Below are positions 6,601 through 19,477 of a stretch of 47,135 bases of DNA, piece by piece (positions within the stretch are counted from its first letter, which is position 1; each line of letters opens with the position of its first letter). This DNA comes from Planctomycetaceae bacterium (GTDB taxonomy: Bacteria > Planctomycetota > Planctomycetia > Planctomycetales > Planctomycetaceae). Under the pieces are notes generated by a model. It was not told the origin of the DNA, did no database searches, and saw only the letters and a program-made list of their open reading frames with translations. The translations under genes were made by a program, and so were the position numbers. The DNA is taken from positions 1 through 47,135 of the forward strand of contig JAKFVC010000022.1 of NCBI GenBank assembly GCA_021732415.1. The letters are read 5' to 3'.

Positions 6601-7219
6601 CCGGACCTTCAGCATCACGGCCGGCAACACCGGCGGAGTCTTCGCCATCAATCCCAACTCCGGGGCCATCACGGTCGCCGTGGCCGCGCTCGACTTCGAA
6701 ACGACACCCACTTATCACCTCACGGTCCAAGCCACCGACAACGGGAGTCCGGCGCTCCCCGGTACGGGCACCATCACAATCAACGTGACCAACGCCAACG
6801 ACGCACCAATGTTGGTCGAGAACACAGTCGCTCCGACTTTCGTGTTTAAGGCCAAGACGCCGGTGAAGCCATTCCCCGCAATCGCGGTCAACGACCCCGA
6901 CGGCAACACCACGCTCGCCTCGGTCACCGTCACCGTGCAGATCCCGACTGGCAAAAAGAACCTCGATATCGTGAGCTTCAATCCGGCCGGACTGGGGACC
7001 GTCTCGGACACCGTCGTGGGAGGCCAGCGTCAGATCAAAATCACCCTCGCCAACGGAGTCACCACCCCCCAGATGGAGACATTCCTCCGCGGCATCACCT
7101 TCGCCAGCAAAGGCGCGAGCCTGAAGACCACGACGCGCACGTTCTCAGCCAGCGTGACGGACAAGAGCGGAGCAGACAGCAATGTCATCACGCGAACGGT
7201 GGCGATTAGGAAGAAGTGA
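611..7219 (+). CDS. Giant exported repeat protein (tandem-95, Calx-beta and cadherin repeats)
   Basis: A 2202-residue surface or extracellular protein, probably adhesive or structural. The N-terminus is basic, and residues of about 55-64 read EPLEDRTLLA, the leader box typical of large exported planctomycete proteins. Next come a beta-rich domain (about 65-260), one longer and four roughly 97-residue tandem-95 (cadherin-like) repeats with NEDTAIT-type starts (about 275-770), seven Calx-beta repeats with VSFST openings and TVTILDID ends (about 772-1548), and five cadherin repeats with PENSA openings and TVNVTNVNEPP ends (about 1550-2066). A last cadherin-like domain ends in basic residues. Calx-beta and cadherin repeats usually bind calcium. 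There is no catalytic domain, sortase motif or dockerin. The start is the ATG directly before the basic leader. Functional specificity cannot be read from the sequence. Confidence 0.93.
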   Translation: MLLSHWLISLANRVFTSRGRGGQRRSLTRGTSLLLRSNSRDVSGGAVAAEVMEIEPLEDRTLLAVTQLGTSQTAVENSGAQFSVTFNYTVGAGTQRLLVVSTAGGGNNANATSVRFAGTNLTQGPEHANGAFTRAEIFYLPLGDSASATSGSIVVSYDRNFLFFATATAFQGVDQTSPVGSSPTINNSSLNVTSATGNMVVDAVVGGLSGPLTVGSGQTAQSTASGLNFGSQVGGVSTEAGAANVAMTWSNITGTTSHVAVSIKPAAVVVVNQAPSGADKTETTNEDTAYTFAAADFGFSDPGNSPANTLLAVKITTLPGNGTLTDNGVSVTAGQFVSVADITGGLLRFTPTADANGIPLSSFTFQVQDNGGIVGGGVDLDQSPNTITINVQSVADINNDTLTVNEDSIITANVLTGSNGATADSFENGGAQLAAVTQGSRGTVTFSGNGSITYTPSADFNGTDSFTYTVLSGGVGEIATVNVTINPVADITNDALITNEDTAITANLITGENGATADTFENAGKALTSVSPGSHGTVTFAANGSVTYTPNADFNGTDSFSYTVLSNGASESATVSVTINAVVDITSDSISTNEDQAITFNAITGTNGATPDTFESGGAAITSVNPGSHGSVGFQANGSITYTPNADFNGSDSFTYTVTSGGVTETAAVSVIINAVADITADTLTTNIGTPITANLITGTNGATADSFEDGGRTLFNVTQGAHGSVTLQANGSVTYTPNGSFVSTDSFTYTVISGGIAETATVSIVAIAPPPAVSFSTDSVSVNEMAGTILITINLSSTQLAPVIIPYTVGGTASKPSDYTMSGANQLIIPSNTSSATISINIVDVIGFEPTETIVLTLGTPTNATLGTTTTCTVTILDVDAPPTVSFNSPGGSVPENSGVVLATVNLSFASAADTTIHFTVSGTANNPGDYSIAASPLVIPAGQTSGTIQINLVDFIGFEPSETVILTLGAPTNATLGDSTVKTITILDIDPPPTVSFTSSTASVFEVSGFILVPVELSFASVVPTTIPFLAGGTANDPGDYSIPINPLVIPAGQTTGFIQINIVDFIGFEPSETVVLTLGSPTNGSLGATTTTTVTILDIDAPPTVSFSTDSLTASETSGQVEVTVDLSFSSVVETTIPFSIGGTATNGVDFATSASPLVIPAGQTSGKIQIAIGDLIGFEPTETVVLTLGTPTNATLGATTSTTLTIFDIDPQPSVSFSTDASGVSETAGTFQVTVNLSLPSSQNVTIPFSVGGTANNPSDYSIASSPLVIPAGQTSGTIQINLVDVIGFESSETIILTLGTPTNGSLGSVPSTTVTIFDFDAAPVATFNTSTQSAGEGIGIVVVTVNLSFAIGQNVTVPYTIGGSAANPADYTIAASPLIIPANQQSATFNITVVNDTNFESDETVVLTLQTPTNATLGATTVDTVTITDDDFIPVVNFSTAAQSAGEGTGTVTLTVNLSGAAFSNVSIPYSVTGGSATSGTDFTLSASPLVVQAGATTGSITLNLIDDSLIEGNETVTVTLGTPTNGTLGGTPAQTVTINDNDINHAPTFNAGQQFSLPENSAGGTNAGNVAASDNDTPAPFNTLTFSLSNNPGTLFAINPVTGQITVANGAVLDFDTNPTITLGVTVTDGAPSPLSTSQNVTINLTNVNEPPVVTAATLSVPENSAVNTPVGTVAANDPDAGQTKTFSITNGNTGGAFGIDSATGAITVAAQSALNFETTPTFTLTVQATDNASPALSGSATITVNLTDVNEAPVVTPATFSIAENSAANASVGTVAATDSESGQTKAYSITAGNTGSAFAINTTTGAITVATPSALNFETIQQFSLTVQVADNGNPVATGSATITVNVTNVNEPPVVTPAAFSIAENSAANTAVGSVVANDPDANQTKAFSITAGNTGNAFAINSTTGAITVATPSAVNFEGTQQIFNLTVQVTDNGSPTASGTAAVTITVTNVNEAPVVTVATMTIAENSAVNSAVGTVSANDPDGGQTRTFSITAGNTGGVFAINPNSGAITVAVAALDFETTPTYHLTVQATDNGSPALPGTGTITINVTNANDAPMLVENTVAPTFVFKAKTPVKPFPAIAVNDPDGNTTLASVTVTVQIPTGKKNLDIVSFNPAGLGTVSDTVVGGQRQIKITLANGVTTPQMETFLRGITFASKGASLKTTTRTFSASVTDKSGADSNVITRTVAIRKK

Positions 7220-7235
7220 TTCATGGAGGGAGTGC

Positions 7236-7328
7236 TGACAGAAAGATTTGGGACAGAAAAATGATCTGCGTTCCATGTCGGCGAGAACTCGCCACAGGAC
7301 ACTCTTTCTGTCCTCCCTTTATCTGTCA
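7236..7328. repeat. Two-block inverted repeat downstream of the adhesin gene
   Basis: The left arm has TGACAGA (7236-7242) and GGACAGAAA (7251-7259). The right arm has TTTCTGTCC (7305-7313) and TCTGTCA (7322-7328). The two paired blocks are separated by 8 unpaired bases on both sides, so the geometry is symmetrical. It starts 17 bases after the stop codon and could act as a terminator or be an intergenic mobile repeat. Confidence 0.6.
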
Positions 7329-7769
7329 AAACTCTGCTCGCCACGGGAAGGGAACAACGGTTCCTGACAGCATTGTTTTTCCGATGCCGTAGCCTGACTC
7401 TCCAGAGTCGGGCGATTGTCCGATCGTCTCGACACGAGATTGCCCTGGTCCTCGCCGCCCCGTACAAAAAGCTCTGCCACAGCGCCGCCAGAGTAAATCC
7501 AAGGTATTCTCTGCACCGAGGTGGCGTGAAGTGATGTGCGAGACAGGCAGTGCGGGCACAGTCAAGGGCTCGAATGGTTCGGGTGACTCGTGCTTCCAGC
7601 ATAGGTTGTGGGCCACGTGCGCACCGCGGACGCAATTGTTGGTGTGTTGAAGCACTCGCTGCGGCGCGGTAGTTCTACGCGGCCCGTGACGAGTGCGACT
7701 TCAGCACGCCACCGAGTCGAGTCTCGCAGTCCACGTCATCGATCCTGATCGTGCTGCGCGGCTCCGGAT

Positions 7770-7931
7770 GCGATTCACATCCCTGCGGCAAATAGTCTCT
7801 GGCTGAGTGCGGGCGCAGATGGTTAGCTTCCGCCCGACCCTGATCAACCGCTGTCGTTCCTTCCGCGTCACCGAGATCTGGGTCGACAGTCGCGAGCGCA
7901 GAATCCGGTTCTCATCTTTCAGGTGGACGCT
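7770..7931 (-). pseudogene. Transposase N-terminal remnant
   Basis: Within an open minus-strand frame (7701-8141), one segment reads HLKDENRILRSRL, then VTRKERQRLIRVGRKL, then TQPETICRRDVNR. This matches the N-terminal region of a DDE (rve-type) transposase family common in planctomycetes: an ENxxLR helix, an ERxxL-GK segment, then a PETIxxW-type segment. The rest of the protein, including the whole catalytic core, is missing and the flanking residues do not fit, so this is debris. The C-terminal half of what appears to be the same family survives at 46333-46692. Confidence 0.55.
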
Positions 7932-8201
7932 TCTCACTACCTCGATTCGGCAGGGCGAGCGTGTGTGATCGATGCCGGTACCGACGTCGGTCGTGACCTG
8001 AATCGCCTGTTCGTTGGCTTTCTGCGGCGAGAATTTGGCGATGACCAATTTACGGTCCAGCGACTGGAAGCGGTTCCCGCCGTCGCCAGTTCGGCTGGCT
8101 GTTAGCGCTGGGGCGATGGACAGCGTCGGAATGAGCAGCACGCCGCGACGAGGCAGCGTGTGAGATTTTAGTCCTCGTTGGATGCGACTCAGGACGGGTC
8201 A

Positions 8202-9125
8202 ATGAAAACCTATCAGAAGAACACTACCCTGCTCGCCGCGGCAATCAACGTGCTCGAGGAAGAGCACCCCTGCACGTTACGGCAGCTCTTCTACCGCCTG
8301 GTCTCGGCCGGCGAACTCCCGAATGCACAGACCGCATATCAGCGGCTCGGCAAGCTGATGACGCGCGCCCGAGAATCTGGGCTGGTTGATCGCCGTCATA
8401 TTGTGGACCACGTGCGGGCCACGATGAAACCAGGATCTTGGTCTGGGCTCCAGGACTTCGGGGATACGGTCCGAAATGCCTACCGGAAGGATTTCTGGGC
8501 GAGCCTCGATCACTACGTGGCCGTATTTGTCGAGAAGGATGCGGTCGCGGGCACCATTCAGCCGGTCACATACGAGCACAACGTGTCGCTCCACGTCTGC
8601 CGGGGGTATGCCAGCGTGTCGTTCGTGGGCGAGATTGCCGACGACTGGTCGCTGATCGAGAAGCCGATCCACGCTTACTATCTGGGGGATTTCGACCCCA
8701 GCGGCTTCGATATTGAACGCGATCTCAAAGAGAAGCTGTCTCGGTATTCGGACAAGAGCGTTTACGAAACCGACCAGTATCATGTCAGCGATCGCAATCA
8801 CATCTGGTGGACCCGACTGGGGGTTCTGCCCACAGACTTCGCGGAGTTCGATCTAATTCGACTCCCCATCAAATCCAAGGACAGCCGAGCTAGCGGATTC
8901 CGCGAGAACTATGGCGATGCCGGTGCGGAAATCGATGCCATCCCACCAACAGAGTTAAGGCGTCGCGTTACGGATGCCATCAGTAATCACATCGACGTTG
9001 AGCGGTGGAACTCACTGCTGCAAGTCGAGGCCGCCGAACGGGCCACCATGCGGACCGTCCTGGCGTCACTCGGAACGGAAACCGAATCTAGATCACATTT
9101 GGCCGAAGGTGAGGGTTCAGCATGA
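8202..9125 (+). CDS. Spo11/TopoVI-A-like protein of the Mini-A type
   Basis: A 307-residue protein with both halves of a type IIB topoisomerase A subunit. Residues of about 20-70 form a winged-helix CAP region in which RQLFY places Tyr31 where Spo11 and TopoVI-A carry the DNA-attacking tyrosine. The second half has a Toprim domain: Glu111 in VEKDA, then Asp163 and Asp165 in GDFDPSG, the metal-binding residues. No B (GHKL ATPase) subunit is encoded nearby. This combination matches the lone 'Mini-A' proteins described in mobile elements of bacteria and archaea. It may cut or relax element DNA, possibly during replication, but that is inference. I chose the ATG at 8202 (AGGA at 8191-8194) over the upstream TTG at 8178. 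It overlaps the primase gene by 4 bases (ATGA), indicating one operon. Confidence 0.8.
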   Translation: MKTYQKNTTLLAAAINVLEEEHPCTLRQLFYRLVSAGELPNAQTAYQRLGKLMTRARESGLVDRRHIVDHVRATMKPGSWSGLQDFGDTVRNAYRKDFWASLDHYVAVFVEKDAVAGTIQPVTYEHNVSLHVCRGYASVSFVGEIADDWSLIEKPIHAYYLGDFDPSGFDIERDLKEKLSRYSDKSVYETDQYHVSDRNHIWWTRLGVLPTDFAEFDLIRLPIKSKDSRASGFRENYGDAGAEIDAIPPTELRRRVTDAISNHIDVERWNSLLQVEAAERATMRTVLASLGTETESRSHLAEGEGSA

Positions 9126-11560
9126 CCCCCGCCATCAACGGACACAATCGAATCTCGCAGCTCCAGGCAGATCTGGAGCAGGTGGAGCAATCCCTGCGGT
9201 TGTCGGTGGCGCCCAACGGGCTGGGTGAGATTCGCGTAATTGGTCAGAGCGGTGGGCCGTACGGGTACTATTTTGGATATGACCAGATCCCCCAGGCGGT
9301 GAGAATTGCAGCCAGGGACACTCAAACTGCCAAGGGCGTGTATTTCGTCTTCAACGAACTGAGTGCCCAACTGGGCGATCGTCCGCGCCTGACCCGAACC
9401 TACACCCTCACGAAGGATGTGGACATCGCGCGCCGGCGGTTGGTCCTCATCGATCTCGATCCAAGTTCCGCGGAGCGAGGTCCCGAAGACTCGTCGACCG
9501 ACATGGAAAAGGAAGCCGCCCGCGAGACTATGGAATTGGTCTACGAGTGGTTGAGAAGTCAAGGATTTCCCGAGCCGATCGTCGCCGACTCAGGGAATGG
9601 ATGGCACCTGCTATTCGCGGTGGATCTGCCCAATGATGATCAGACGACCGACCTGATACAGGCCTTTGTGAATGCCCTCGCCAAGCGGTTTTCGACGGCG
9701 GACGTGGCAGTCGACATCTCAGTTTTTAATTCGTCTCGAATCACGAAGTTGTACGGTACCGTAAGCCGCAAGGGCGAGAATCGGCTGGACCGTCCGCATC
9801 GTCTGTCACGCATCATCTCTGTTCCCGACGGCAGCCTCCAACCTGTTGCACGCGAGTTGTTTGATGCCGTGACCGGCGCGGATGGCTTGTTTAATCGGGC
9901 AGAGTCACTGGTTGAGCGGTCGCCACCCACTCGGTCTGCCCCGAAGTTGATTCTGCCGGAGGTCTTTCCCGTCGGGGGACGTCACAAGACACTGCTCAGC
10001 GTCGCGGGCGCAGCACGAGCGATCGGCTCCCACGAATCTGAGATCTTAGAGATCTTGCGGATCTTCAATCGGACCCGTTGTGCGGACGCGAAACCCGATG
10101 CAGAGCTGCAACAGATTGCCCGAGACTATGCGTTGAAAGACGTAAACCTCGGCATGCAGGCCCTGATGACGTGCGACACGGCAGCTGGGATCGAGCAGGC
10201 TCAACGTCAGCAGCGATTGCGGCACGGGGTGCAGAACATTGCGAAGCGGATGGGCGAGGGGGCCACCGAAGCTGAGTTGGCCATCAAGCTGTCGAGCATC
10301 CTGGCCGAGTTGGAGCAGGGAGCCGAAGCAATCGATTTCGAGACGCTCAGCAGTCAAGATTTGGACGCCGGCCAATTTTCGTTGGACTACGCCATCGCGG
10401 GGATCCTTGTCGAACGCCAACCGTGCATCCTCGGGGGACCCAAGAAGTGCCTGAAAACGAATGTGCTCATTGCGTTGGTCCTGGCGCTCTCCAGTGGATG
10501 TAAATTCCTCGGTGAGTTCTTTGTCAGCCGGACGTATCGTATCGCGCTGATTAGTGGCGAAAGTGGCAAAGCGACGATTCAGGAAACGGCTCGGCGTATC
10601 GCGAAGGCCTCCCTCTGGCCCCATCTGCGGGATTATGAGAACGCATTCTGGTGTTTCTCATTACCCAAGCTCGGGCAACCTGACACCGTCCGAACGCTGA
10701 TTTCATATATCCAGAAGCATCGACTCGAAATCCTGATTCTGGATCCGATCTATCTCTGCATGCCAATCGGTGACGCGGCCAGCAACTTGTTCCTGGTGGG
10801 GCAGATGCTGTCCGATCTCAACAAGGTCATGGATGAGACCGGTTGCACAATCATCCTGTGCCATCACTCGAAGAAGGGGACTGGGGCGAATCAGTTCGAC
10901 CCACCCGAACTGGAATCCATGGCGTGGGCCGGTTTTCAGGAATGGGCGCGTCAATGGATCTTGCTGGGGCGACGTGCGCCCTACGCTCCGGATAGTGGCG
11001 GATACCACGAGCTCTGGTTGGCCACTGGCGGCTCCGCTGGGCATTCCGGTCTGTGGGCGCTGGACGTGACCGAGGGAACGCGAGAAGACCCTCAGGGCAG
11101 ATGCTGGGACGTGATCGTACGCAAGGCCTCGGAGGCCCGGCAAGCAGAAGCGCAGGAGCGTGAGGCGGTTAAGGACCAGCGGGATCAGCAACATCGAAAT
11201 AGCGACAGGGAAAAGGTTCTCAAAGCGTATGCATTGTTCCCGCTAGGCGAGACCAGTCGGTGTTTGCGCGATTCTGCGGGACTGAGCGGGACCAAGTTCG
11301 GTCCCGTCAATGCGGACCTGATTCGGGACGGAATCGTCGAATCGTGCACGATCACCAAGGGTGGAAAGCGTCACGAAGCCTTCCGGCTCAAAGGAGTGGG
11401 ACAACCGGGACTCGTCCCACTCAATCCCACTGGTCCCGCTGAGCCGAGGAGTGAGTGGGACAAGCCTCTCTCTCTTAAGAGAGGCTGTCCCAGTCCCACT
11501 CATCCTCGGCCAAGCGACCAAGGCGGCGATGTTCTACCGGACTCGATCGACGTCAGGTGA
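9122..11560 (+). CDS. Primase-helicase fusion (AEP-like primase plus RepA/KaiC-type ATPase)
   Basis: An 812-residue replication protein. The N-terminal third looks like an archaeo-eukaryotic-type primase: LIDLDP at about 108-113 supplies the acidic pair and SGNGWHLLF the later motif of primase-polymerase palms. The middle is a RecA-fold hexameric-helicase ATPase of the RepA (AAA_25) type: Walker A GGPKKCLKTN at about 437-446, Walker B ILILDP at about 538-543, then the sensor-like LCHHSKKGTG. The C-terminal part (about 690-760) looks like a winged helix. It probably starts and unwinds replication of the island. The last 55 residues are read through a palindrome and iteron cluster, so this tail is unlikely to be a folded domain. 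It overlaps the Mini-A stop by 4 bases. Confidence 0.82.
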   Translation: MTPAINGHNRISQLQADLEQVEQSLRLSVAPNGLGEIRVIGQSGGPYGYYFGYDQIPQAVRIAARDTQTAKGVYFVFNELSAQLGDRPRLTRTYTLTKDVDIARRRLVLIDLDPSSAERGPEDSSTDMEKEAARETMELVYEWLRSQGFPEPIVADSGNGWHLLFAVDLPNDDQTTDLIQAFVNALAKRFSTADVAVDISVFNSSRITKLYGTVSRKGENRLDRPHRLSRIISVPDGSLQPVARELFDAVTGADGLFNRAESLVERSPPTRSAPKLILPEVFPVGGRHKTLLSVAGAARAIGSHESEILEILRIFNRTRCADAKPDAELQQIARDYALKDVNLGMQALMTCDTAAGIEQAQRQQRLRHGVQNIAKRMGEGATEAELAIKLSSILAELEQGAEAIDFETLSSQDLDAGQFSLDYAIAGILVERQPCILGGPKKCLKTNVLIALVLALSSGCKFLGEFFVSRTYRIALISGESGKATIQETARRIAKASLWPHLRDYENAFWCFSLPKLGQPDTVRTLISYIQKHRLEILILDPIYLCMPIGDAASNLFLVGQMLSDLNKVMDETGCTIILCHHSKKGTGANQFDPPELESMAWAGFQEWARQWILLGRRAPYAPDSGGYHELWLATGGSAGHSGLWALDVTEGTREDPQGRCWDVIVRKASEARQAEAQEREAVKDQRDQQHRNSDREKVLKAYALFPLGETSRCLRDSAGLSGTKFGPVNADLIRDGIVESCTITKGGKRHEAFRLKGVGQPGLVPLNPTGPAEPRSEWDKPLSLKRGCPSPTHPRPSDQGGDVLPDSIDVR
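11394..11510. other. Candidate replication origin: GAGTGGGAC iterons and a 68-nt palindrome
   Basis: Four exact copies of GAGTGGGAC lie at 11394-11402 (+), 11414-11422 (-), 11453-11461 (+) and 11493-11501 (-); a 7/9 copy is at 11424-11432 (-). GGGAC-TC-GTCCC is at 11407-11418. From 11443 to 11510 the sequence folds into a long hairpin. Its outer arms start GCCGAGGA and end TCCTCGGC, and its inner arms are AGCCTCTC (11463-11470) and GAGAGGCT (11479-11486), with only small bulges. Iterons plus a palindrome beside the initiator gene are the usual layout of P4-, SaPI- or plasmid-like origins. The array lies inside the 3' end of the primase reading frame. The alternative is a transcription attenuator or terminator between the replication and packaging modules. 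Confidence 0.55.
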
Positions 11561-11627
11561 CTCGGGCGTAGCGATTTTGAAATCAATGACCGTTCAAACC
11601 CCCAAGAACTATCCGCGGAAGGCAACC

Positions 11628-11843
11628 ATGCAGAATCGATTTGGAATTGAATCCGGAGCCGTCATCGCCTGCCAGCAATACGCCGGTTCGTATCCGCGAT
11701 TGGCGTCCAGTTCCGGCGCCGAAACGTGGCAACTGGTCGCTGGCCTGGAGGCGGCCCTGATTTTGGTTCTGTTCGCCGGTTGGCTGCATGCCACCCGCAC
11801 AACGCCCCAGAAGCGTGATGGCGAGGGGGACGAATCCCCATGA
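11628..11843 (+). CDS. Small single-pass membrane protein
   Basis: A 71-residue product with one hydrophobic segment (about 36-53, LVAGLEAALILVLFAGWL) and a charged C-terminal tail ending RDGEGDESP. I do not recognise a family. The frame is open further upstream, and an ATG at 11586 is also possible. It overlaps the next small gene by 4 bases (ATGA), which supports both being translated. It sits between the replication and packaging modules. A role in lysis, exclusion or membrane anchoring would be guesswork. Confidence 0.5.
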   Translation: MQNRFGIESGAVIACQQYAGSYPRLASSSGAETWQLVAGLEAALILVLFAGWLHATRTTPQKRDGEGDESP

Positions 11844-12046
11844 ACTCGTCTCGACCACCGCCCAACCCTTGGGACTGCTGGACCTGGCTACTGGTTGCGA
11901 TCATGGTCCTGGCTCTCGTGGTTGCCCGAAACATTTGTCGAATCCCACACCTGCTAGATTACCCCAACGAACGGAGTCACCCCCAATGGAAATTGTCGAA
12001 AAACCTGTGTCTGAGATTATCCCTTACCACCGAAACCCGCGCGTGA
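11840..12046 (+). CDS. Small membrane protein overlapping the previous gene
   Basis: A 68-residue product with a Pro/Trp-rich start and one hydrophobic segment (about 15-29, TWLLVAIMVLALVVAR) followed by basic residues, as for an N-out/C-in or signal-anchor protein. A purine-rich site (GAGGGGGA, 11822-11829) precedes the ATG, and the start overlaps the upstream stop. Its last 61 bases overlap the start of the ParB-methyltransferase gene in another frame. No family is recognised. The tandem of two overlapping one-helix genes resembles phage accessory genes such as holin- or spanin-like pairs, but no specific lysis motif is visible. Confidence 0.45.
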   Translation: MNSSRPPPNPWDCWTWLLVAIMVLALVVARNICRIPHLLDYPNERSHPQWKLSKNLCLRLSLTTETRA

Positions 12047-13200
12047 ACGACAACGCTGTGGCGGCGCTGGTTGCGTCGATCCGGGAGTTTGGGTTCCGGC
12101 AGCCGATCGTCGTGGATCCTGACATGGTGGTCATTGTTGGCCACACGAGGCTGAAGGCGGCGATTCAACTGGGAATGAAGACAGTCCCGGTGCACATCGC
12201 CCGCGACCTGACGCCAGCGCAGTTGAAGGCCTACCGCATCGCCGACAATCAGACCGCGACCATTGCCGAGTGGGACTTCGACCTCCTGCCACTGGAGTTG
12301 ACCGAACTTGAAGATCTGCAGTTCGATTTGAATCTGCTAGGCTTCGATGCCGACCAGTTAGCGAAGATCCGGGGCACCGAGGAGGCGGAAGGTGAGTGCG
12401 ACGCCAACGAAGTTCCGGAGCCTCCCGCGGTGGCAATCACCCAGCCCGGGGACTTGTGGCTGCTGGACAACCACCGTCTGTTGTGCGGAGACTCGACGAA
12501 CCTTGAGCATGTGCAGCGTCTCCTGAACGGCGAGAAGGCGGCACTAGCTGCGACCGACCCGCCGTACCTGGTCGACTACACCGGCGAACGCCCCAACGAC
12601 AGCGGCAAGGATTGGACCGCGTCGTACCGTGAGATTGATATCACCGACGCTGATTCGTTCTTCCGAGCCGTTTTCACAAACATCCTGCAAGTGCTGGCAC
12701 CGCACTCGGCAATCTACTGTTGGCACGCGCACAAGCGGCAAGCGTTGATCTCTCGGGTGTGGGAAGACCTCTCGATCCTGGATCACCAGCAGATTGTGTG
12801 GGTGAAACCGACACCAGTGTTTGGACGCGTGTTTTGGCACTTCCGCCACGAGCCCTGCATGATGGGTTGGGTGCAGGGAAGTCAGCCCACGCATGATGGC
12901 GACCAGTCGTTCAACTCGGTGTGGGAAATTGACTGGGAAGGAAAGTCCCGGATCGTGGGAAATAACCATCCCACCCAGAAACCGGTCGAGATCTTTGCCC
13001 GCCCGATGCGCAAACACACCAAGATCGGGGACCTGTGCTACGAGCCGTTTAGTGGAAGCGGCAGCCAGTTGATCGCTGCCGAACAGATGCAGCGGCGCTG
13101 TTATGCGATGGAGATTAGTCCCATATTCGTGGACGTAGCGGTTCAGAGGTGGGAGCTGTTTTCGGGGAAGAAGGCCGAGCGGATTGCCGCAAGTGCTTAG
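11986..13200 (+). CDS. ParB-domain / beta-class DNA methyltransferase fusion
   Basis: A 404-residue two-domain protein. Residues 1 to about 100 form a ParB N-terminal-like domain with GHTRLKAA (52-59), the ParB box II type. Residues of about 150-395 form an amino-methyltransferase with the catalytic motif DPPY (191-194) and the AdoMet-binding FSGSGS (355-360) downstream of it. This is the beta-class order of N4-cytosine or N6-adenine methylases. Such fusions are common just before phage terminase genes and probably modify element DNA against host restriction or mark it for packaging. I chose the ATG at 11986 over the longer upstream frame because the ParB fold starts there and GGAG lies at 11972-11975. 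No partner restriction nuclease is present. Confidence 0.88.
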   Translation: MEIVEKPVSEIIPYHRNPRVNDNAVAALVASIREFGFRQPIVVDPDMVVIVGHTRLKAAIQLGMKTVPVHIARDLTPAQLKAYRIADNQTATIAEWDFDLLPLELTELEDLQFDLNLLGFDADQLAKIRGTEEAEGECDANEVPEPPAVAITQPGDLWLLDNHRLLCGDSTNLEHVQRLLNGEKAALAATDPPYLVDYTGERPNDSGKDWTASYREIDITDADSFFRAVFTNILQVLAPHSAIYCWHAHKRQALISRVWEDLSILDHQQIVWVKPTPVFGRVFWHFRHEPCMMGWVQGSQPTHDGDQSFNSVWEIDWEGKSRIVGNNHPTQKPVEIFARPMRKHTKIGDLCYEPFSGSGSQLIAAEQMQRRCYAMEISPIFVDVAVQRWELFSGKKAERIAASA

Positions 13201-13232
13201 TATGCCGCCCTATAATTCGAGGAAGACTATAA

Positions 13233-13862
13233 ATGGCAGTCACTCGGGCCAAGAAAACCGAGATCGCGCAACGGCGGAAGCAGGTCGCGGAGTTGTATAT
13301 CCAAGGTTGGACCCAGGTCCAAATCGCGGACAAATTGAGTACCACGCAGTTCACGGTCTCAACGGATCTTCAGCGACTCCAGAAAGAGTGGCGCGAATCC
13401 CGGCTGCGTGATTTCGATAGCGCACGCGAACTCGAGATTCAGAAACTGGACCGTCTAGAGCGCGAGGCTTGGGCTGCTTGGGAGCGGAGCCAGAAGCCAT
13501 CGCAGTCGGCCGAGTTCAAGGACGACGCCACCAATACGCCGTCCAAGAAGAAGGTCAAGAACCAGAACGGCGACCCACGGTTTTTGGTGGTGGTCCATCA
13601 ATGCATCGCCTCCCGCCGCGCCCTGTTGGGTTTGGACGCACTCCCGGCACTGCCGAAGGAAGACGCTAATGCCGCCATCGATTCCACTGAGCGCGCTGAC
13701 AGGATTATCTCCCTCGTCACTTCAATACGCGACCGAGAAAGAGCTGCTGGCGCTGGAACGATTATTGTCGCAAAGCAGTCCGGGGATGTTCGCGCAGACG
13801 GTGAGCGAGGGGAAGTGGAAGATGGCGCACCACCTGGCCTACCTGGACCGAGCGATCTCTGA
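13233..13862 (+). CDS. Phage terminase small-subunit-like protein
   Basis: A 209-residue protein. The N-terminus (about 9-50) is a helix-turn-helix, RKQVAELYIQGWTQVQIADKL, with a following recognition helix in the style of phage TerS DNA-binding domains. A charged helical middle (about 50-90) could make the oligomer core. The C-terminal third is low complexity and read in a frame that overlaps the large subunit by 194 bases. TerS normally recognises the packaging site and loads TerL. The assignment rests on the HTH, size and position directly before TerL. TATAAT at 13211-13216 lies 17 bases before the ATG and might be a -10 box, but no good -35 is visible. Confidence 0.65.
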   Translation: MAVTRAKKTEIAQRRKQVAELYIQGWTQVQIADKLSTTQFTVSTDLQRLQKEWRESRLRDFDSARELEIQKLDRLEREAWAAWERSQKPSQSAEFKDDATNTPSKKKVKNQNGDPRFLVVVHQCIASRRALLGLDALPALPKEDANAAIDSTERADRIISLVTSIRDRERAAGAGTIIVAKQSGDVRADGERGEVEDGAPPGLPGPSDL

Positions 13863-15165
13863 GTCGATTGAGATGGCGGCAGCGGGCCAGCGCGACGGTC
13901 TGCTCGTGAGCATGCCACCGCAACATGGAAAAAGCGAGTTGTGCAGCAAGTACCTGCCGGCCTGGTATCTCGGCACGCATCCCGACCGGCGTGTCATCCT
14001 GACCAGCTACGAAGCGGACTTCGCGGCGTCGTGGGGGCGTAAAGCCCGCGACCTCCTTGAACACCACGGTAACCTGTTTGGCGTAAAGGTCTCGAAACGC
14101 TCTGCGGCCGTGAACCGCTGGGACCTGGAAGGTCGCGATGGCGGGATGACGACCGCGGGCGTCGGTGGTGCGATCACGGGCAAAGGCGCCCACCTGCTGA
14201 TCGTGGACGACCCCATCAAAAACGACGAGGAAGCCCGCAGTCCGAAACACCGGCAAAAGCAGTGGGATTGGTGGCAGTCTGTAGCCACGACGCGTATGCG
14301 CCCAGGCGGCTTGATGGTGGTCGTGCAGACGCGTTGGAATCGCGACGACTTGACGGGGCGCATCCAGGATCAGGCCAAGTCGAACGGTCAGCGTTGGTTG
14401 ACGGTCAAGCTGCCGGCGCTCGCGGAGGCGGGAGACCCAATGGGACGCGCCCCCGGCGAAGCCCTGTGGCCCGAGATGTACTCTAAAGAGTTGCACGAGA
14501 AGAACAAAGCGACGAGGACCTCGTACTATTGGCGGTCAATGTACCAGCAGGATCCGGTTGCGGAAGGCGGTACCGAATGGCCGGAAGCCTGGTTCGGTCC
14601 GCAAATCTGGTTTAACGAGTGGCCCGACTCGTGGCGGGTCAAGTCCGTTGCTTTAGACCCCAGTAAGGGGACCGATTCGAAGTTCGGGGACTACTCGGCG
14701 TTTGTGATGTTGATGCTCGGGCTGGACAATACGATTTACATCGATGCCGACCTGGCGCTCCGCAACACGTCGATCATTGTGGAAGACGGGTTGCTAATCC
14801 AACGCCGATTTCAGGCAGACGGGTTTGCGGTCGAGACGAACCAATTTCAATCGATGCTGGCCGACGAGATGTTCCGCCGGGCTAACGAGGCGGGCATCTA
14901 CATGCCTGTCTTCGGCTTCAATAACCAAACCAATAAGCTGGTGCGGATTCGCGGCCTGACCCAATATCTGGCAAGCGGTCGGATTCGGTTTAAGGGTGAT
15001 TCGCCGGGAGCCCGCCTATTGGTCGAGCAGCTCCGAGATTTCCCGCTGGCCGACCATGACGATGGTCCTGACGCCTTGGAGATGGCGATTCGGATCGCAG
15101 CGGAGTTGCTGAGTGGGCTCCAGTATCGATTCGATGACGATCACATCGAATATGTTTGCACGTGA
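13669..15165 (+). CDS. Phage terminase large subunit (TerL)
   Basis: A 498-residue DNA-packaging motor. The ATPase half has Walker A PPQHGKSE (83-90) and Walker B LLIVDDP (176-182). The nuclease half keeps an RNase H-like acidic set: Asp330 in ALDPSKG, Glu389 in AVETNQF and Asp468 in DGPDAL. Both halves look intact, so the protein should pump and cut DNA. The start at 13669 gives a 194-base overlap with the small subunit. ATGs at 13786 and 13822 would shorten the overlap and still keep the conserved region. No portal, protease, capsid or tail gene follows, which is unusual because TerL normally precedes the portal gene. Confidence 0.9.
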   Translation: MPPSIPLSALTGLSPSSLQYATEKELLALERLLSQSSPGMFAQTVSEGKWKMAHHLAYLDRAISESIEMAAAGQRDGLLVSMPPQHGKSELCSKYLPAWYLGTHPDRRVILTSYEADFAASWGRKARDLLEHHGNLFGVKVSKRSAAVNRWDLEGRDGGMTTAGVGGAITGKGAHLLIVDDPIKNDEEARSPKHRQKQWDWWQSVATTRMRPGGLMVVVQTRWNRDDLTGRIQDQAKSNGQRWLTVKLPALAEAGDPMGRAPGEALWPEMYSKELHEKNKATRTSYYWRSMYQQDPVAEGGTEWPEAWFGPQIWFNEWPDSWRVKSVALDPSKGTDSKFGDYSAFVMLMLGLDNTIYIDADLALRNTSIIVEDGLLIQRRFQADGFAVETNQFQSMLADEMFRRANEAGIYMPVFGFNNQTNKLVRIRGLTQYLASGRIRFKGDSPGARLLVEQLRDFPLADHDDGPDALEMAIRIAAELLSGLQYRFDDDHIEYVCT

Positions 15166-15334
15166 CCACCTTCAACCTTTGCTCAGGAGTCGACCAGTGT
15201 TGGTCAACATGGACCCAGGATGGGCGAACTGGGTCCGAGCTCGCTTCCTTGTTGTGGCGGATTGAGGTACTGACTGGACGTCGCCGGAAACCGTCTCCGG
15301 GAGAGTCAGATTACCCAAACCACCAGGAAGCAGC

Positions 15335-15991
15335 ATGCAGCCCTACCGTTCCCCGGGAGCCGATGCCACGAAAATCCTCATGCGAAAAGAACTGGCCGCG
15401 GTGCTGGCCGACCTGCGCCGGAAGGCCGACCGTTCTCCCAATACCCGGTTGAACTTGATCATCTTCCGCCTGGCCACGTGTTGCGGCCTCCGTGCGTCGG
15501 AGATCGCGAGTCTCCACGTGTCCGACGTTCGGGTGGAAGCCGCCCGTCCCCACGTCAGGATACGCCGTGGCGCCGCCAAGGGCGGTCGTCGGCGAAACGT
15601 ACCGCTCTGGTGGGACGCCGGCACGTTGGCCGATCTGGCGGCCTGGAAGAAAGACAAACTGGCGATCAATCCGAATGCCGAGTTGCCGTTCGTGGCGTCA
15701 TTGCGCGATGGGAGAATTGGAATCCGGATGTCGCGTCACACATTGAGGAAGCGGTTCCGAACTGCGTGCAAAATCCTCGGGTTGGCTCGATTGGAAACTC
15801 TGACGATTCACCACGGGCGGCACACCTTCATTAGTCACGCGCTCGCCGGCAGTCGCAATCTGGCGGAAGTCCGTGATGCGGCAGGGCATGCCAATGTTTC
15901 GATCACTTCGACTTATTTGCACGTGCTGATCGACGACGAGGAAGCGGTGGGGAACTTGTTCGGAATCTCGTCACAGACCACATTGAGATGA
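15335..15991 (+). CDS. Compact tyrosine recombinase / integrase
   Basis: A 218-residue site-specific recombinase with the full catalytic set: Arg53 in CGLRASE, Lys82 in the beta-hairpin, His159 and Arg162 in IHHGRHTF, His185 in AGHANV and Tyr194 in STYLH. Only about 40 residues precede the catalytic domain, so the usual arm-binding and SAM-like core-binding domains are missing or very short. The ATG at 15335 has AGGAAG just upstream. It is the last gene of the island, 169 bases after TerL and in the same direction, as expected for an element that places its integrase next to its attachment site. The att core itself was not found. Confidence 0.88.
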   Translation: MQPYRSPGADATKILMRKELAAVLADLRRKADRSPNTRLNLIIFRLATCCGLRASEIASLHVSDVRVEAARPHVRIRRGAAKGGRRRNVPLWWDAGTLADLAAWKKDKLAINPNAELPFVASLRDGRIGIRMSRHTLRKRFRTACKILGLARLETLTIHHGRHTFISHALAGSRNLAEVRDAAGHANVSITSTYLHVLIDDEEAVGNLFGISSQTTLR

Positions 15992-16086
15992 CGTAGGATC
16001 GACTCTCCAAACCTGCTTCGGTGTGACAGTCAGGGGCACCCAATATGCCACAATTTCCTGATGCAATCATCCCGGATTGTCTGTAA

Positions 16087-16114
16087 CATAATCTCCTGCC
16101 GCCTGGGGATTATG
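16087..16114 (+). promoter_or_regulatory. Hairpin in the leader of the DUF1501 gene
   Basis: CATAATCTCC and GGGGATTATG pair over 10 bases (one T-G wobble) around the 8-nt loop TGCCGCCT. It lies 28 bases before the ATG of the DUF1501 gene and could be an operator or a leader structure. It could also be an end feature of the neighbouring island. Confidence 0.35.
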
Positions 16115-16142
16115 AGGACCTTGTTGAGAGGACCTGACAGAC

Positions 16143-17630
16143 ATGCTTCGACTTTTAGGTAATCCCAAAGTCCTGTGTAATGGCCTGACGCGCCGTGATC
16201 TGCTGCACATCGGCGGACTGGGCGCGTTTGGCGTGGCCTTGCAGGATGTGTTGGGCTGGCAGCAAGTCCATGCCAACCCCATTGACTTGGGCTCCAAGTT
16301 TGGGCAAGCCAAGTCTTGCATCCTGATCTACAAGTACGGGTCGCCTCCGCAGCATGAGACCTTCGATCCGAAACCGGAGGCTCCGGTCGAGATTCAAGGA
16401 GAGATGAAGTCGATTCCCACCAACGTGCCGGGAATCGAGATTGGCGACCATCTGCCGAAGATCGCCCGGATTATGGATCGCTTGACCGTGGTGCGTTCCT
16501 TGACGCATCCGTACCCCTTGCACGGCACCGTTTACGCAACCACGGGGATTCCCGAGGTCGACACCAAGATTGAAGCCGAGCCGCGCAATAAGCGGCAGTG
16601 GCCATTCATCGGATCGCTCGTGGATTACTTTGAGGATCAGCGGACGGGTGGCAAATTGCCTGCGATGCCGCGCAACGTCGCATTGCCCTTCGTGATGGGA
16701 TCGAAGGACGAGTATCCGCCGCTGGCCGGTCCCTACGGAGCGATGCTCGGGATGCGCTACGATCCTGTCTACACCGACTTTGCCGAGGAAGGCACGACGC
16801 TGGCCCCCGAGGTGCGGCCCGGCAGGGCATTCAAGGATCCCTTGCTGGGAATCAAGTCGTCCGATCGATTGCGGCTGGTCGGAGGCGGTTTATCGAACAC
16901 GACGGCGTCACAGTTCGAGTTGCGTCGCTCATTGTTGGGGCAGTTCGACCAGGCGCGGCGCGATCTGGATGCTCACGAACGGATCAGCACCTACAGCCAG
17001 CAACAGCAAGTCGCCTTCTCGCTGCTGACCTCCGGGAAAATGCACGCGGCACTGGACTTCGGGCTGGAGCCGATGCCCGTGCGCGAAGCGTACGGCATGA
17101 CCCTGTTTGGCCAATCGTGCCTGGCCGCCCGGCGGTTGATCGAGGCGGGGACCAAGTTTGTCACGGTGATCTGGGACGCTTACGGACTGAACGCCGGATC
17201 GTGGGACACCCACCACAACCACTACGGCCGGCTAAAAGAGTTCTTACTGCCAGTCTTCGATCACACGTTCAGTGCCCTAATCCTGGACCTGGAACAACGC
17301 GGCCTGTTGGATGAGACTCTGGTATTGGTGATCAGCGAACACGGTCGTACGCCGCAGATCGATTCCGGGCCGAAGGGAGCGGGCCGAAATCACTGGTCAC
17401 GAGCGTACTCGCAAGTGTACGCGGGCGGCGGCATGGGACGAGGTCACGTCGTTGGACGTACCGACAAGCACGCTGGCGATGTCGAAGAGACTCCGATTTC
17501 GCCGAAGGATGTACTCGCCACGGCCTTTCACTTGCTGGGCATCGATCCCGAAAGCACGTTTCCTGACCCGGAAGGCCGTCCGCTGCCAATCACCGGAACC
17601 GGTCATCTTCGAACGGAACTATTGGGCTAG
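16143..17630 (+). CDS. DUF1501 (sulfatase-like) exported protein
   Basis: A 495-residue member of the DUF1501 family, which is greatly expanded in planctomycetes and distantly related to alkaline phosphatases and sulfatases. The N-terminus carries a Tat-like signal with Arg17-Arg18 in TRRDLLHIGGLGAFG. Family features include SCILIYKYGSPPQHETFDPK, the DRLTVVRSLTH segment, and near the C-terminus VISEHGRTPQ followed by GRNHW. These are metal-binding style motifs of the alkaline-phosphatase superfamily. The substrate is unknown. DUF1501 genes often pair with a DUF1553 or DUF1549 cytochrome gene, but none is adjacent, so this copy stands alone between two accessory regions. Confidence 0.9.
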   Translation: MLRLLGNPKVLCNGLTRRDLLHIGGLGAFGVALQDVLGWQQVHANPIDLGSKFGQAKSCILIYKYGSPPQHETFDPKPEAPVEIQGEMKSIPTNVPGIEIGDHLPKIARIMDRLTVVRSLTHPYPLHGTVYATTGIPEVDTKIEAEPRNKRQWPFIGSLVDYFEDQRTGGKLPAMPRNVALPFVMGSKDEYPPLAGPYGAMLGMRYDPVYTDFAEEGTTLAPEVRPGRAFKDPLLGIKSSDRLRLVGGGLSNTTASQFELRRSLLGQFDQARRDLDAHERISTYSQQQQVAFSLLTSGKMHAALDFGLEPMPVREAYGMTLFGQSCLAARRLIEAGTKFVTVIWDAYGLNAGSWDTHHNHYGRLKEFLLPVFDHTFSALILDLEQRGLLDETLVLVISEHGRTPQIDSGPKGAGRNHWSRAYSQVYAGGGMGRGHVVGRTDKHAGDVEETPISPKDVLATAFHLLGIDPESTFPDPEGRPLPITGTGHLRTELLG

Positions 17631-17684
17631 AGCGCATTCACGGAATGTTTGCGCCACAACAAACCTAATGACACCTGCAGGCGA

Positions 17685-17846
17685 CTACGGTTTGCCGAAC
17701 GCCGTCTCGTGCAGATTGTCGACACCTTTCAACGCCGCCCAGGCCTTACGAAACACTTCGCAGACCCCTTTAGCTCCCGCTAGGTAAGCCTTGCGATATT
17801 CTTCTAGGGTGCCGTTGATGTCGAAATTGTCGAGTGGATCGGCCAT
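17685..17846 (-). CDS. Small hypothetical protein (53 aa)
   Basis: A 53-residue frame starting MADPLDNFDINGTLEEYRK and ending ETAFGKP. It is predicted to be helical and soluble. The start has GGGGG at about 8 bases upstream. It is the last gene of a minus-strand series with similar strong purine-rich start sites, which is why I accept it despite its size. I do not recognise a family. Confidence 0.5.
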   Translation of the reverse strand: MADPLDNFDINGTLEEYRKAYLAGAKGVCEVFRKAWAALKGVDNLHETAFGKP

Positions 17847-18114
17847 GATGTGCCCCCAACGATCGATGGTGAATGGCCCGCAAGGCTAGTGTATGCACCG
17901 ATGCGCCCATGTAACAATATGTCCACATGCGAAAACAGCGTTGTGCAGAGGATCCCCTCCGCGGTCGCTACGTGGCGATTTGAATCGCGAGCCTTACACC
18001 TCCGAATTCCCTCCACAACGCAAATTGTTGGGTCGGCAGCGGTCACCGCTGATTCCATGAACGACCGAAACGCCACACGAGTCAATCGCGGGCGTTTGGT
18101 TCTACGCTTGGCAT

Positions 18115-18282
18115 TCAGTCGCTGGCCGTGGCAACTGCGTCCTTGAGGTTATCCCATTCGACTCGGGTGACCATCTGGTTTTCCCGGGCTTCGAGTAGCG
18201 CCCGAGCGGCATCGAGCAGCGTGGGCGGTTTTTTTGGCATCCGCGAATCTAGCTCATCGGCGATCTGGTGTTCGATAGTCAT
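18115..18282 (-). CDS. Small hypothetical protein (55 aa)
   Basis: A 55-residue helical product (MTIEHQIADELDSRMPKKPP and onward, ending DAVATASD). The ATG lies only 12 bases after the stop of the HARE-HTH gene and has GGGGGA upstream, so the two are probably translated from one mRNA. No family is recognised. It is short, charged and lacks membrane segments, like many accessory phage or island proteins. Confidence 0.55.
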   Translation of the reverse strand: MTIEHQIADELDSRMPKKPPTLLDAARALLEARENQMVTRVEWDNLKDAVATASD

Positions 18283-18294
18283 GGCTTCGTCCCC

Positions 18295-18891
18295 CTACTT
18301 CGTTGCTAGGGCGAACCGGCCCTTGTCGGTTTTCTGGAATCGCGACTCGGTACCCTTGGTTTTGATTTCCCGCAGGATCGCGGCGTAAAGCGTCGCGTGG
18401 GGCGTCTGCCCGCCGGGGCTGGTCCAATATCCCTTGGCCGACATAGCGTCGATCATTTCCTTCGTGGCCATCGGTTCGGCTGATTCGCCCAGAACTTTTG
18501 CGGCGGCGTCCAAGGCACTCATCTTCTTCGGCTGTTCGGTTGCCGTCTTAACCTTCTTGGCCTTGGGTTTGCCGGTCGCGGGTACTTCTGCGCTTTGGGC
18601 CTCCGCCTCTGCATCCTGTTCGCGCTGGCAGACCGATCGGTACTCCTTCAGATCGGCCGCGGAGAGTTGCTTGTTGAACGATCCGGCCATCTCCTCTGTC
18701 GTTTCCCCGACCGGTTGGCCGTCCTCGGTCCGCTGCATCATCACCACGGTGTCGTCGCCGACCTTCTTCTGCTTGGCGTTGGTGCAAAACCAGAGCTCAC
18801 CGCCGAGGTCCTGGTAGAACCCGCCTTTCTTGAACGTTACCGCCTGTTGGGCTGTAGCGGGCTTAGTCTTCGTGGATGCCTTCTTTGCCAT
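18295..18891 (-). CDS. HARE-HTH domain protein
   Basis: A 198-residue protein with a Lys/Ala/Thr-rich start, a middle domain (about 20-90) with repeated acidic and Gln residues, a basic linker (PKAKKVKTATEQPKK) and a C-terminal HARE-HTH winged helix (about 124-198: SALDAAAKVLGESAEPMATK, then a YWTSPGGQTPHATLYAAI core and a GRFALA end). This domain is shared with the RNA polymerase delta subunit and eukaryotic ASXL proteins and links DNA binding to transcription or DNA modification. AAGGA precedes the ATG. It is the second gene of a minus-strand set (19303 to 17685). A regulator or nucleoid-associated role is likely, but the target is unknown. Confidence 0.75.
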   Translation of the reverse strand: MAKKASTKTKPATAQQAVTFKKGGFYQDLGGELWFCTNAKQKKVGDDTVVMMQRTEDGQPVGETTEEMAGSFNKQLSAADLKEYRSVCQREQDAEAEAQSAEVPATGKPKAKKVKTATEQPKKMSALDAAAKVLGESAEPMATKEMIDAMSAKGYWTSPGGQTPHATLYAAILREIKTKGTESRFQKTDKGRFALATK

Positions 18892-18982
18892 GTTCGTGTT
18901 CCTTCTGCGAAGTGAATGGAGTGGCTGCCATCTTCAGGCTGCCGGAACCACCCAGCAGCGACGCGGTTGGCCCGCGTTTCGG

Positions 18983-19303
18983 CTAGGGCACGTACACCAA
19001 ATCCGCTATACCTGCCGCCAAGAAATCGACCACCGCGTAGGTGGCGTCGTCCGCCGCGGGGACGTCTTGCCCGCGGTCCCAATTAAAGACCGTTTGGTTG
19101 TCGGCCAGGCCCTTGATCCAGAGCTTCGAGATCTGGCTTCGCCCCAGCTCCCAATCGGCGTTCTCGGCGTGTGCGGGAAATACCAAGGCCTCGAAGCGGT
19201 ACCCGTTAAGCGTTCCGCAGACCCAGGTCCCCGTGCCTGCTGCTTGCCGTGTAATCTTGGTGATCTGAAGGTCGTCACCGAGGTTGTCGCAATCTGTCGC
19301 CAT
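18983..19303 (-). CDS. Hypothetical protein of an accessory operon (106 aa)
   Basis: A 106-residue protein (MATDCDNLGDDLQITKITRQ, then WVCGTLNGYRFEALVFPAHA and ending ADLVYVP). The middle, with GYRFEALVFPAHA followed by WELGRSQISKLWI, has the look of a small alpha/beta fold found in phage- and island-borne hypothetical proteins. I cannot assign a function. GGGAG lies about 8 bases before the ATG. It is the first gene of the minus-strand series and faces the divergent HTH gene at 19478, so a shared regulatory region lies at 19304-19477. Confidence 0.65.
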   Translation of the reverse strand: MATDCDNLGDDLQITKITRQAAGTGTWVCGTLNGYRFEALVFPAHAENADWELGRSQISKLWIKGLADNQTVFNWDRGQDVPAADDATYAVVDFLAAGIADLVYVP

Positions 19304-19477
19304 GTTCCGAACTCCCGTCTGGTCTGGTGAATCGTTTCGGTCATCGAACGAGTCACACAGTTACCTCCGGTGCGGAATGACATCCAGCGCTGTTTCGCAG
19401 AATTCTGAATGTTTCTTGGAGGTCGCCAACCCGTGAATGTTGACGGCTAGATGCGAGGCGTTCACCATGCACAAACT

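Follow-up and report, generated by a model that had tools for sequence, protein, structure and literature searches.

A candidate iteron–hairpin replication origin at the 3′ end of a primase–helicase gene in planctomycetal mobile elements

Why should a gene for a replication protein end in a cluster of short repeats and a long hairpin? The locus that raises this question lies in a 47,135-nucleotide stretch of a Planctomycetaceae bacterium (GenBank assembly GCA_021732415.1, contig JAKFVC010000022.1; the whole stretch is hereafter 'the window'), in which a mobile element carries a gene, here called rep, for an 812-amino-acid primase–helicase. The open reading frame (ORF) of this gene, at 9122–11560, stays open through the entire region of repeats and hairpin. 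A reading of the letters alone (the original prediction) had proposed that these form a replication origin. We consider it likely, at a probability of roughly 0.85, that positions 11394–11510 are the replication origin of the carrying element, of an iteron–hairpin type and read by the gene's own product, as judged from the DNA and from predicted protein folds.

Results

Clustered 9-mers and a hairpin within the coding sequence

The final 170 nt of rep contain four exact copies of the 9-mer GAGTGGGAC, alternating in orientation (+, −, +, −) and spanning 108 nt (11394–11501), with degenerate copies among them (Table 1). The four exact copies and their alternation are as originally described; the single 7/9 copy reported with them within 110 bases needed correction, in that the copy at 11487 matches at 8/9 positions and further copies, at 11424 and 11433, match at 7/9. 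An isolated 8/9 copy at 11284 (+) stands apart from the cluster. Repetition of this kind had been judged not to be expected by chance, and indeed, when the whole window was shuffled 60 times with dinucleotides preserved, four copies of a 9-mer never fell within 110 nt, the maximum being two copies in 58 shuffles and three in two, and GAGTGGGAC is the sole 9-mer of the real window with four copies in such a span. It is the clustering that is unusual and not the count, because the window as a whole is not enriched for GAGTGGGAC (18 matches with at most one mismatch versus 13.7 expected, and 12 of 100 shuffles reach 18).

The predicted 68-nt hairpin is also present, at 11443–11510, although it does not follow the boxes as had been stated: boxes 3 and 4 sit within its arms. 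The palindrome has a TTAA-capped inner stem, a single-base bulge and a 1 × 6 internal loop. Folded as DNA, the 151 nt at 11380–11530 reached −44.8 kcal/mol, compared with −23.2 ± 2.8 kcal/mol for shuffled versions (z = −7.7), and none of the 200 shuffles was as stable. An Rfam scan of 7000–17000 yielded no family at gathering score, and a tRNA search of the window found none. Elsewhere in its own genome (G000) the candidate origin gave short matches and one second copy, which lies in the 1.07-kb remnant of a sister element (locus L091, contig C116, 14323–15385; 86.5% identical). This remnant covers the hairpin together with the 3′ portion of the helicase gene and ~280 nt beyond, and no other window DNA was matched on that contig.

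The architecture recurs at the 3′ ends of related helicase genes

Relatives of the protein were matched at E 1e-3 in 74 of the family's 170 genomes, some of these matches covering one domain only. Scans located 40 loci in named genomes and a further 19 in viral contigs. Those in named genomes are, by label, nearly all planctomycetal or from planctomycete-containing assemblies; the exceptions in label are L042 ('bacterium'), L070 (Acidobacteria), L071 (Peptococcaceae) and five labelled Candidatus Kuenenia, itself a planctomycete. Of 90 loci fetched we compared 60; the others were duplicates or near-duplicates, or lacked a stop codon within the contig or enough sequence beyond it. Those compared are mostly planctomycetal and include the window locus, the C116 remnant and 12 viral contigs. 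Two controls were used: 300 windows elsewhere within the same loci, and the 3′ ends of 254 further ORFs, taken from those 48 of the 60 loci that came from the scans of named genomes and viral contigs and had other usable ORF ends, the second because gene ends may differ from random places and because AAA_25 genes of the same genome had shown palindromes or repeats.

A palindrome with a TATA, TTTA, TTAA or TAAA apex (a TA-type apex) was found in 39 of the 60 loci but in 7 of the 300 control windows (Fisher p = 9e-30), a palindrome score of at least 45 in 38 loci versus 21 windows (p = 5e-21), and an 8-mer repeated at least four times in 26 loci versus 5 windows (p = 2e-18). The contrast held against other gene ends, where the same three features marked 32, 31 and 20 of 48 helicase-gene ends versus 4, 22 and 4 of 254 other ORF ends, respectively. 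At least six copies of a 9-mer (at most one mismatch, 660 nt) were present in 27 of the 60 loci and in 6 of 120 control windows. The most stable 100-nt fold of the whole locus, moreover, lay within −280/+200 of the helicase stop codon in 30 of 49 loci (28 of 47 once two near-duplicates were removed), where 1.8 would be expected by position. The location beside the putative initiator gene, part of the original case for an origin, recurs in many of the loci compared. The apex finder mis-centred on at least L050, L051 and L072, and a hairpin scan that demanded perfect stems proved over-stringent, with mixed results.

Box placement recurs while the letters drift

The 9-mer itself differs from locus to locus, being GAGTGGGAC in the window and CACTGGGAC, ACTGCGACA, ATCGGACCA (the box of L078), AGTCGGACA, CGGTGTGCA or others elsewhere. 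Despite these differences, the positions of the boxes relative to the apex recur in 37 loci, namely those with a copy on a hairpin arm among the 44 that had a palindrome score of at least 40 and at least four iteron copies. Direct copies lie near −80, −70 and −57 from the apex, with neighbours spaced 9–11 nt apart in 24 of 33 intervals; an inverted copy lies near −40, one inward-pointing copy lies on each hairpin arm, and another inverted copy lies near +65. Orientation was set from the arm copies, so agreement in the arm zones is partly built in and does not count as independent evidence; in the zones that played no part in orienting, 61 of 75, 15 of 16 and 22 of 25 copies had the expected orientation. 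The upstream zones are not all filled everywhere, with upstream direct copies in 30 of the 37 loci, the −40 copy in 15 and the +65 copy in 19. The boxes of the window fit this scheme loosely, with copies at about −58, −48 and −39, inverted, of which the middle ones are degenerate. Three close pairs of loci were picked by hand: in the two divergent ones (L078/L082 and L075/L072) the boxes have been retained and the intervening spacers altered, and the third is too alike to be informative.

One chain with RepB′-like and RepA-like parts and a predicted winged helix

The only Pfam match in the 812-amino-acid protein is AAA_25. A full-length AlphaFold2 (AF2) model built with 20 sequences has a mean predicted local distance difference test (pLDDT) score of 80.9 and a predicted template modelling (pTM) score of 0.46. 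For the N-terminal primase domain, the best Foldseek match is RepB′ of plasmid RSF1010 (3h20; E = 5.3e-5, TM 0.51), and a VIA comparison placed cyanophage S-2L PrimPol highest (Z 14.7), with RepB′ at Z 12.6; searched against PDB sequences, the domain had no meaningful match, and its likeness to RepB′ is one of fold only. The first three of the chains aligned to the helicase by VIA-align are all RSF1010 RepA (1g8y, 1olo and 1nlf; Z 21.5–20.9, rmsd 3.1–3.2, 228–236 aligned) and exceed the next by 1.3 to 1.9 Z, with sequence likeness to RepA reaching E 0.27 only. The predicted winged helix found regulator-type matches alone among PDB sequences, at non-significant values (E 0.05–0.25). As modelled, then, the chain appears to unite RepB′-like and RepA-like parts with a predicted winged helix where the function of RepC would lie.

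The helicase and winged helix are the part common to the relatives, and the N-terminal module is swapped. Of 37 proteins, namely that of the window and 36 whose loci reach a palindrome score of 40, nine have Prim-Pol as this module, eight a DnaB N-terminal domain and one a zinc-ribbon primase; the N terminus of L019 is of the zinc-ribbon and Toprim type. No primase domain was recognised in the homologues with a DnaB-type N terminus, which suggests that the helicase half has no smaller part in using the hairpin than the primase half.

The protein tail as translated origin DNA

In the 46 loci that passed a palindrome score of 40, the apex lies between −184 and +232 nt from the stop codon, inside the ORF in 19 and past the stop in 27. 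Where it lies more than 10 nt inside the ORF (15 loci), all three codon phases are used (7, 6 and 2). The encoded tails do not align among homologues, and the tail of the window protein is predicted to be disordered. With the apex on either side of the stop, in mixed codon phases and among non-aligning tails, the most fitting view of the tail is as a by-product, origin DNA into which translation happens to run. The suggestion that embedding in a coding frame might account for the odd tail is supported, with the amendment that the embedding is optional rather than a fixed feature. Alignment of homologues had been proposed as a check, with conserved iterons beside a variable tail as the outcome expected of an origin; the placement recurs and the tail varies, but the letters of the box are not conserved between distant loci. 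The opposite pattern, a tail kept after its boxes are lost, was not seen: among the homologues aligned, the C116 remnant alone keeps the window tail, and the boxes are kept there too.

Other functions for the boxes and hairpin

Four other functions could produce some of these features. The TerS-like and TerL genes at 13233–15165, and a TerL gene likewise present in the viral relative L081, would fit a packaging site (pac or cos), with the boxes as the target of the downstream-encoded small terminase and cutting or packaging of the element starting there. We rejected this as very improbable because, although the window itself has TerL, Terminase_6N (the one terminase Pfam family searched) was found in none of nine genomes with relatives of the module versus 6 of 14 control genomes, while the loci of those nine all score at least 40 for the palindrome, eight of them with a named apex or, in L050, a mis-centred one. 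A tblastn search at E 1e-4 for the window TerS and TerL likewise gave no relative in the part of the other loci that it covered. Flanks spanned 1.5–9 kb.

There is a similarly small chance that the boxes are an operator or a parS-like partition cluster, to which the winged helix or the ParB–methyltransferase binds, and not a start of replication. A ParB-N fusion gene adjoins the site, and the iterons of many plasmids also act in copy control. The architecture is, however, more widespread than this fusion, relatives of which occur in 11 other locus entries (10 distinct places), and the site lies 2.3 kb from the start of the gene, with no sigma-70-like match in 11000–12100 in a scan that covered that promoter type; we set the proposal aside on both counts.

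Still less probable is a transcription terminator or attenuator that is palindromic by chance: a hairpin near a gene's 3′ end, past the stop in the majority of the 46 loci just described, would suit it, but no T-run follows the hairpin and a terminator scan calls none at 11443–11510, which led us to reject it, and the palindrome often lies inside the ORF, other ORF ends in the same loci seldom carry one, and phased iterons would be needless for termination. A nicking origin for rolling-circle replication is equally remote, for although geminivirus-type origins have a similar anatomy, with iterons next to a GC-rich stem that has an AT apex, we dismissed it because no HUH or relaxase family was matched in Pfam or PHROGs by the gene or the six other window ORFs scanned, nor was one seen in the 37 relatives.

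Several observations nevertheless weigh against an origin at 11394–11510. The palindrome score is below 40 in 14 of the 60 loci, and 9 of the 46 passing loci lack a named TA-type apex, some of them being truncated, diverged or mis-centred. Neither an AT-rich melting region (largest mean excess 0.047 in 20-nt bins across the 46 loci) nor a notable inflection in cumulative GC skew over the element, one of the checks originally proposed, was found. The hairpins of the window and the C116 remnant are identical at 66 of 68 positions, yet 113 of the 998 windows in their alignment reach that level too. One correlation that favours reading of the boxes by the winged helix is small: across 37 loci, iteron dissimilarity went more with winged-helix distance (rho 0.24, permutation p = 0.0005) than with that of the helicase core (rho 0.09, p = 0.08), but the first correlation is weak, shared ancestry is only partly controlled, the iteron distance is a purpose-made measure and at least two loci are mis-oriented. 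Finally, among 12 other AAA_25 genes of the same genome (drawn from 21 genome matches, the window gene excluded), seven have a palindrome scoring at least 40, five have an 8-mer repeated at least four times and two have both. None of the 12 has a TA-type apex. Because these genes also carry palindromes and repeats, the two features alone are non-specific, and it is the apex and the placement of the boxes that are specific. Several of these genes (L112–L115, L117 and L118) encode FKEV-type repeat tails and carry two to five copies of TCAAAGAA close to the 3′ end, with no TA-apex hairpin.

Six of nine distant relatives score below 40 for the palindrome (L071, L096, L097, L098, L100 and L103, which comprise Microbacterium, Serratia, Lactococcus and Synechococcus phages, plasmid pATHE01 and a Peptococcaceae locus). 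The other three, L099, L101 and L102 (Paenibacillus Diane, Streptococcus Javan235 and Faecalibacterium Aster), have a long palindrome ~200 nt past the stop codon of a repA-like gene. These nine are few and without controls, and serve as a lead rather than a survey. In L071, from a Peptococcaceae metagenome-assembled genome (25% identity), six GTCCAAGT-type boxes lie in a translated tail (SSPSSP, ELGQ) at 9770–10071, with no palindrome of score 40.

Relation to known origins

Taken together, the anatomy of the locus supports an origin of replication as its interpretation, and we asked which known origins it resembles, taking published systems as the cited excerpts describe them. With the oriV of RSF1010 (IncQ) it shares a RepB′-like primase fold (3h20), a RepA-like helicase (1g8y, Z 21.5, the best of the aligned chains) and the combination of iterons and hairpin. 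The iterons of RSF1010 oriV are long direct repeats, whereas those of the window are 9-mers in both orientations; RepA, RepB and RepC are separate there and fused into one 812-amino-acid chain here, where the candidate origin lies at or inside the gene end. RepB′ is described as recognising 40-nt single-strand initiation (ssi) sites, each strand having one, and ssiA as folding into a hairpin (PMC4434180); the window, by contrast with these two sites, has the single palindrome 11443–11510.

Staphylococcus aureus pathogenicity islands and phage-inducible chromosomal islands (SaPI/PICI) likewise combine short iterons with an origin directly 3′ of the initiator gene rep, and the C-terminal domain of their helicase is described as recognising that origin (PMC6092414, PMC7581432). 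In the mapped PICIs of E. coli an AT-rich region is always bordered by two sets of iterons (PMC6092414), whereas here the iterons flank a palindrome and no AT-rich region is seen in the 46 loci. Plasmid pRN1 has a stem-loop just past its primase–helicase gene that is required for replication and conserved in shape, not in sequence (PMC4234260). The pRN family and phage BIP-1 resemble our locus in having a primase–helicase–winged-helix protein and a stem-loop just 3′ of its gene, and differ in that the helicase is of superfamily 3 (SF3) and not of the AAA_25/RepA type, that the stem-loop lies outside the gene, and that the excerpts do not name iterons as part of the origin.

Two further systems share single features. 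The putative origin of the Cch2/CCPol-MP module of staphylococcal cassette chromosome mec (SCCmec) also lies just downstream of a helicase gene and has direct repeats bound by the C-terminal domain of the helicase, with inverted repeats alongside that are dispensable for binding (PMC7581432), but the helicase is a different one and the proteins are separate. The InversePrim and All3500 families of bacterial mobile elements have the same type of fusion, of an archaeo-eukaryotic primase to a RepA-family helicase (PMC5862659), and the excerpt describes no comparable origin for them. Since the candidate shares features with RSF1010, SaPI/PICI and pRN1 and satisfies the full definition of none, we regard it as a variant of the rep-adjacent origins. 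Our search of the open-licence literature, judged mostly by titles and the openings of abstracts, found no described origin for this planctomycetal element family.

A model for initiation

How such an origin might work can be sketched, with the binding, melting, priming and replication that we infer from its layout. The C-terminal winged helix of the primase–helicase would read the short iterons, which across the family are set in 9–11-bp steps on one side of the palindrome and as inverted pairs across it, and phased binding would seat the RepA-like helicase ring at the palindrome. The palindrome would then open or extrude at its TA-rich apex, so that the strands part there and not in an AT-rich stretch, and the fused primase would prime on the exposed strand or strands. 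The process would resemble the action of RSF1010 RepC, RepA and RepB′ at oriV, carried out by one chain. With the origin placed at the 3′ end of the gene, the window ORF would run into it and yield the disordered tail as a by-product. Homologues with a DnaB-type N terminus would need a separate primase.

A more elaborate version, which we offer tentatively and think rather less probable than not, would make the element a compressed RSF1010-type replicon, in which a swappable priming module (RepB′-like, Prim-Pol, DnaB-N or zinc-ribbon/Toprim) is joined to a constant cassette of RepA-type helicase, winged helix and origin. One palindrome might in that case serve as both ssi sites, because both separated strands fold alike; the iterons would drift with the winged helix, giving each element its own compatibility group, and the tail would be translated origin.

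The layout can be recognised and searched for across a large family of integrative elements and phages, which it links by fold to RSF1010, and it would offer a compact rep-plus-ori cassette. If the candidate is an origin, low-complexity tails on replication proteins would gain a reason, as origin DNA read as protein, and coevolution of winged helix and iteron would become testable on dozens of natural pairs.

The element and its relatives

Table 1. Positions of the rep gene, its predicted domains, the candidate origin and neighbouring genes in the window.
Feature	Coordinates	Strand	Evidence
Topoisomerase-like protein	8178–9125	+	PHROG 6247, E 8e-51
rep gene: primase, superfamily 4 (SF4) helicase, winged helix, disordered tail; 812 aa (amino acids)	9122–11560	+	ORF; Pfam AAA_25 E 1.2e-17; AF2 model
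aa 1–255, archaeo-eukaryotic-type primase domain	9122–9886	+	AF2 pLDDT 85.8, pTM 0.85; Foldseek; VIA
aa 284–398, helical stretch between primase and helicase	9971–10315	+	DSSP of model
aa 404–668, RepA/DnaB-type helicase core	10331–11125	+	AAA_25; VIA-align
aa 684–757, predicted winged helix, proposed iteron reader	11171–11392	+	H-H-H-E-E in model, pLDDT blocks 84–93
aa 758–812, low-complexity tail encoded by candidate origin DNA	11393–11557	+	pLDDT 30–35 over 761–812; absent conservation in homologues
Iteron 1, GAGTGGGAC exact	11394–11402	+	Motif scan
Degenerate iteron, 6/9	11403–11411	+	Motif scan
Iteron 2, GAGTGGGAC exact	11414–11422	−	Motif scan
Degenerate iteron, 7/9	11424–11432	−	Motif scan
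Degenerate iteron, 7/9	11433–11441	−	Motif scan
68-nt palindrome/hairpin, proposed origin core	11443–11510		Palindrome search and folding
Iteron 3, GAGTGGGAC exact, left hairpin arm	11453–11461	+	Motif scan
Inner stem, pyrimidine-rich arm then purine-rich arm	11463–11486		Inverted-repeat pair
TTAA apex of inner stem	11475–11478		Apex search
Iteron 8/9, right hairpin arm, overlapping iteron 4	11487–11495	−	Motif scan
Iteron 4, GAGTGGGAC exact, right hairpin arm	11493–11501	−	Motif scan
ParB-N and DNA methyltransferase fusion	11788–13200	+	Pfam/PHROG matches
Small-terminase-like protein (TerS-like)	13233–13862	+	Weak match below Pfam cut-off
Large terminase (TerL)	13669–15165	+	Pfam/PHROG matches
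Tyrosine integrase	15335–15991	+	PF00589, E 5e-21

The genes of the element stand in the order topoisomerase-like, rep, ParB–methyltransferase, TerS-like, TerL and integrase. Pfam and PHROG scans of seven ORFs of the window found no capsid protein, and in the search for element ends no 13-mer was common, in direct orientation, to 7001–9200 and 15801–19500. Among the relatives, whose scanned ORFs were a hand selection in L044, L058, L064, L078, L080 and L081, some occur in phage-like contigs, such as L081 with its TerL, and in L044 and L058 the module lies beside integrases, with no terminase among the ORFs selected for scanning.

Relatives of the ParB-N–methyltransferase lie downstream of rep in L037, L072, L073, L075, L078, L080, L081 and L083, which are mainly viral contigs. 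The genome of the window also holds partial relatives of its TerL, on contigs C37 (51806–52204, 77% identity) and C190 (9935–10612, 40%) of G000, and these sequences suggest that further related elements are present there. In L064 (strain TBK1r), a gene at 14279–15406 for a CAP12/Pycsar-type TIR effector, likely a defence cargo, lies near the rep–origin module.

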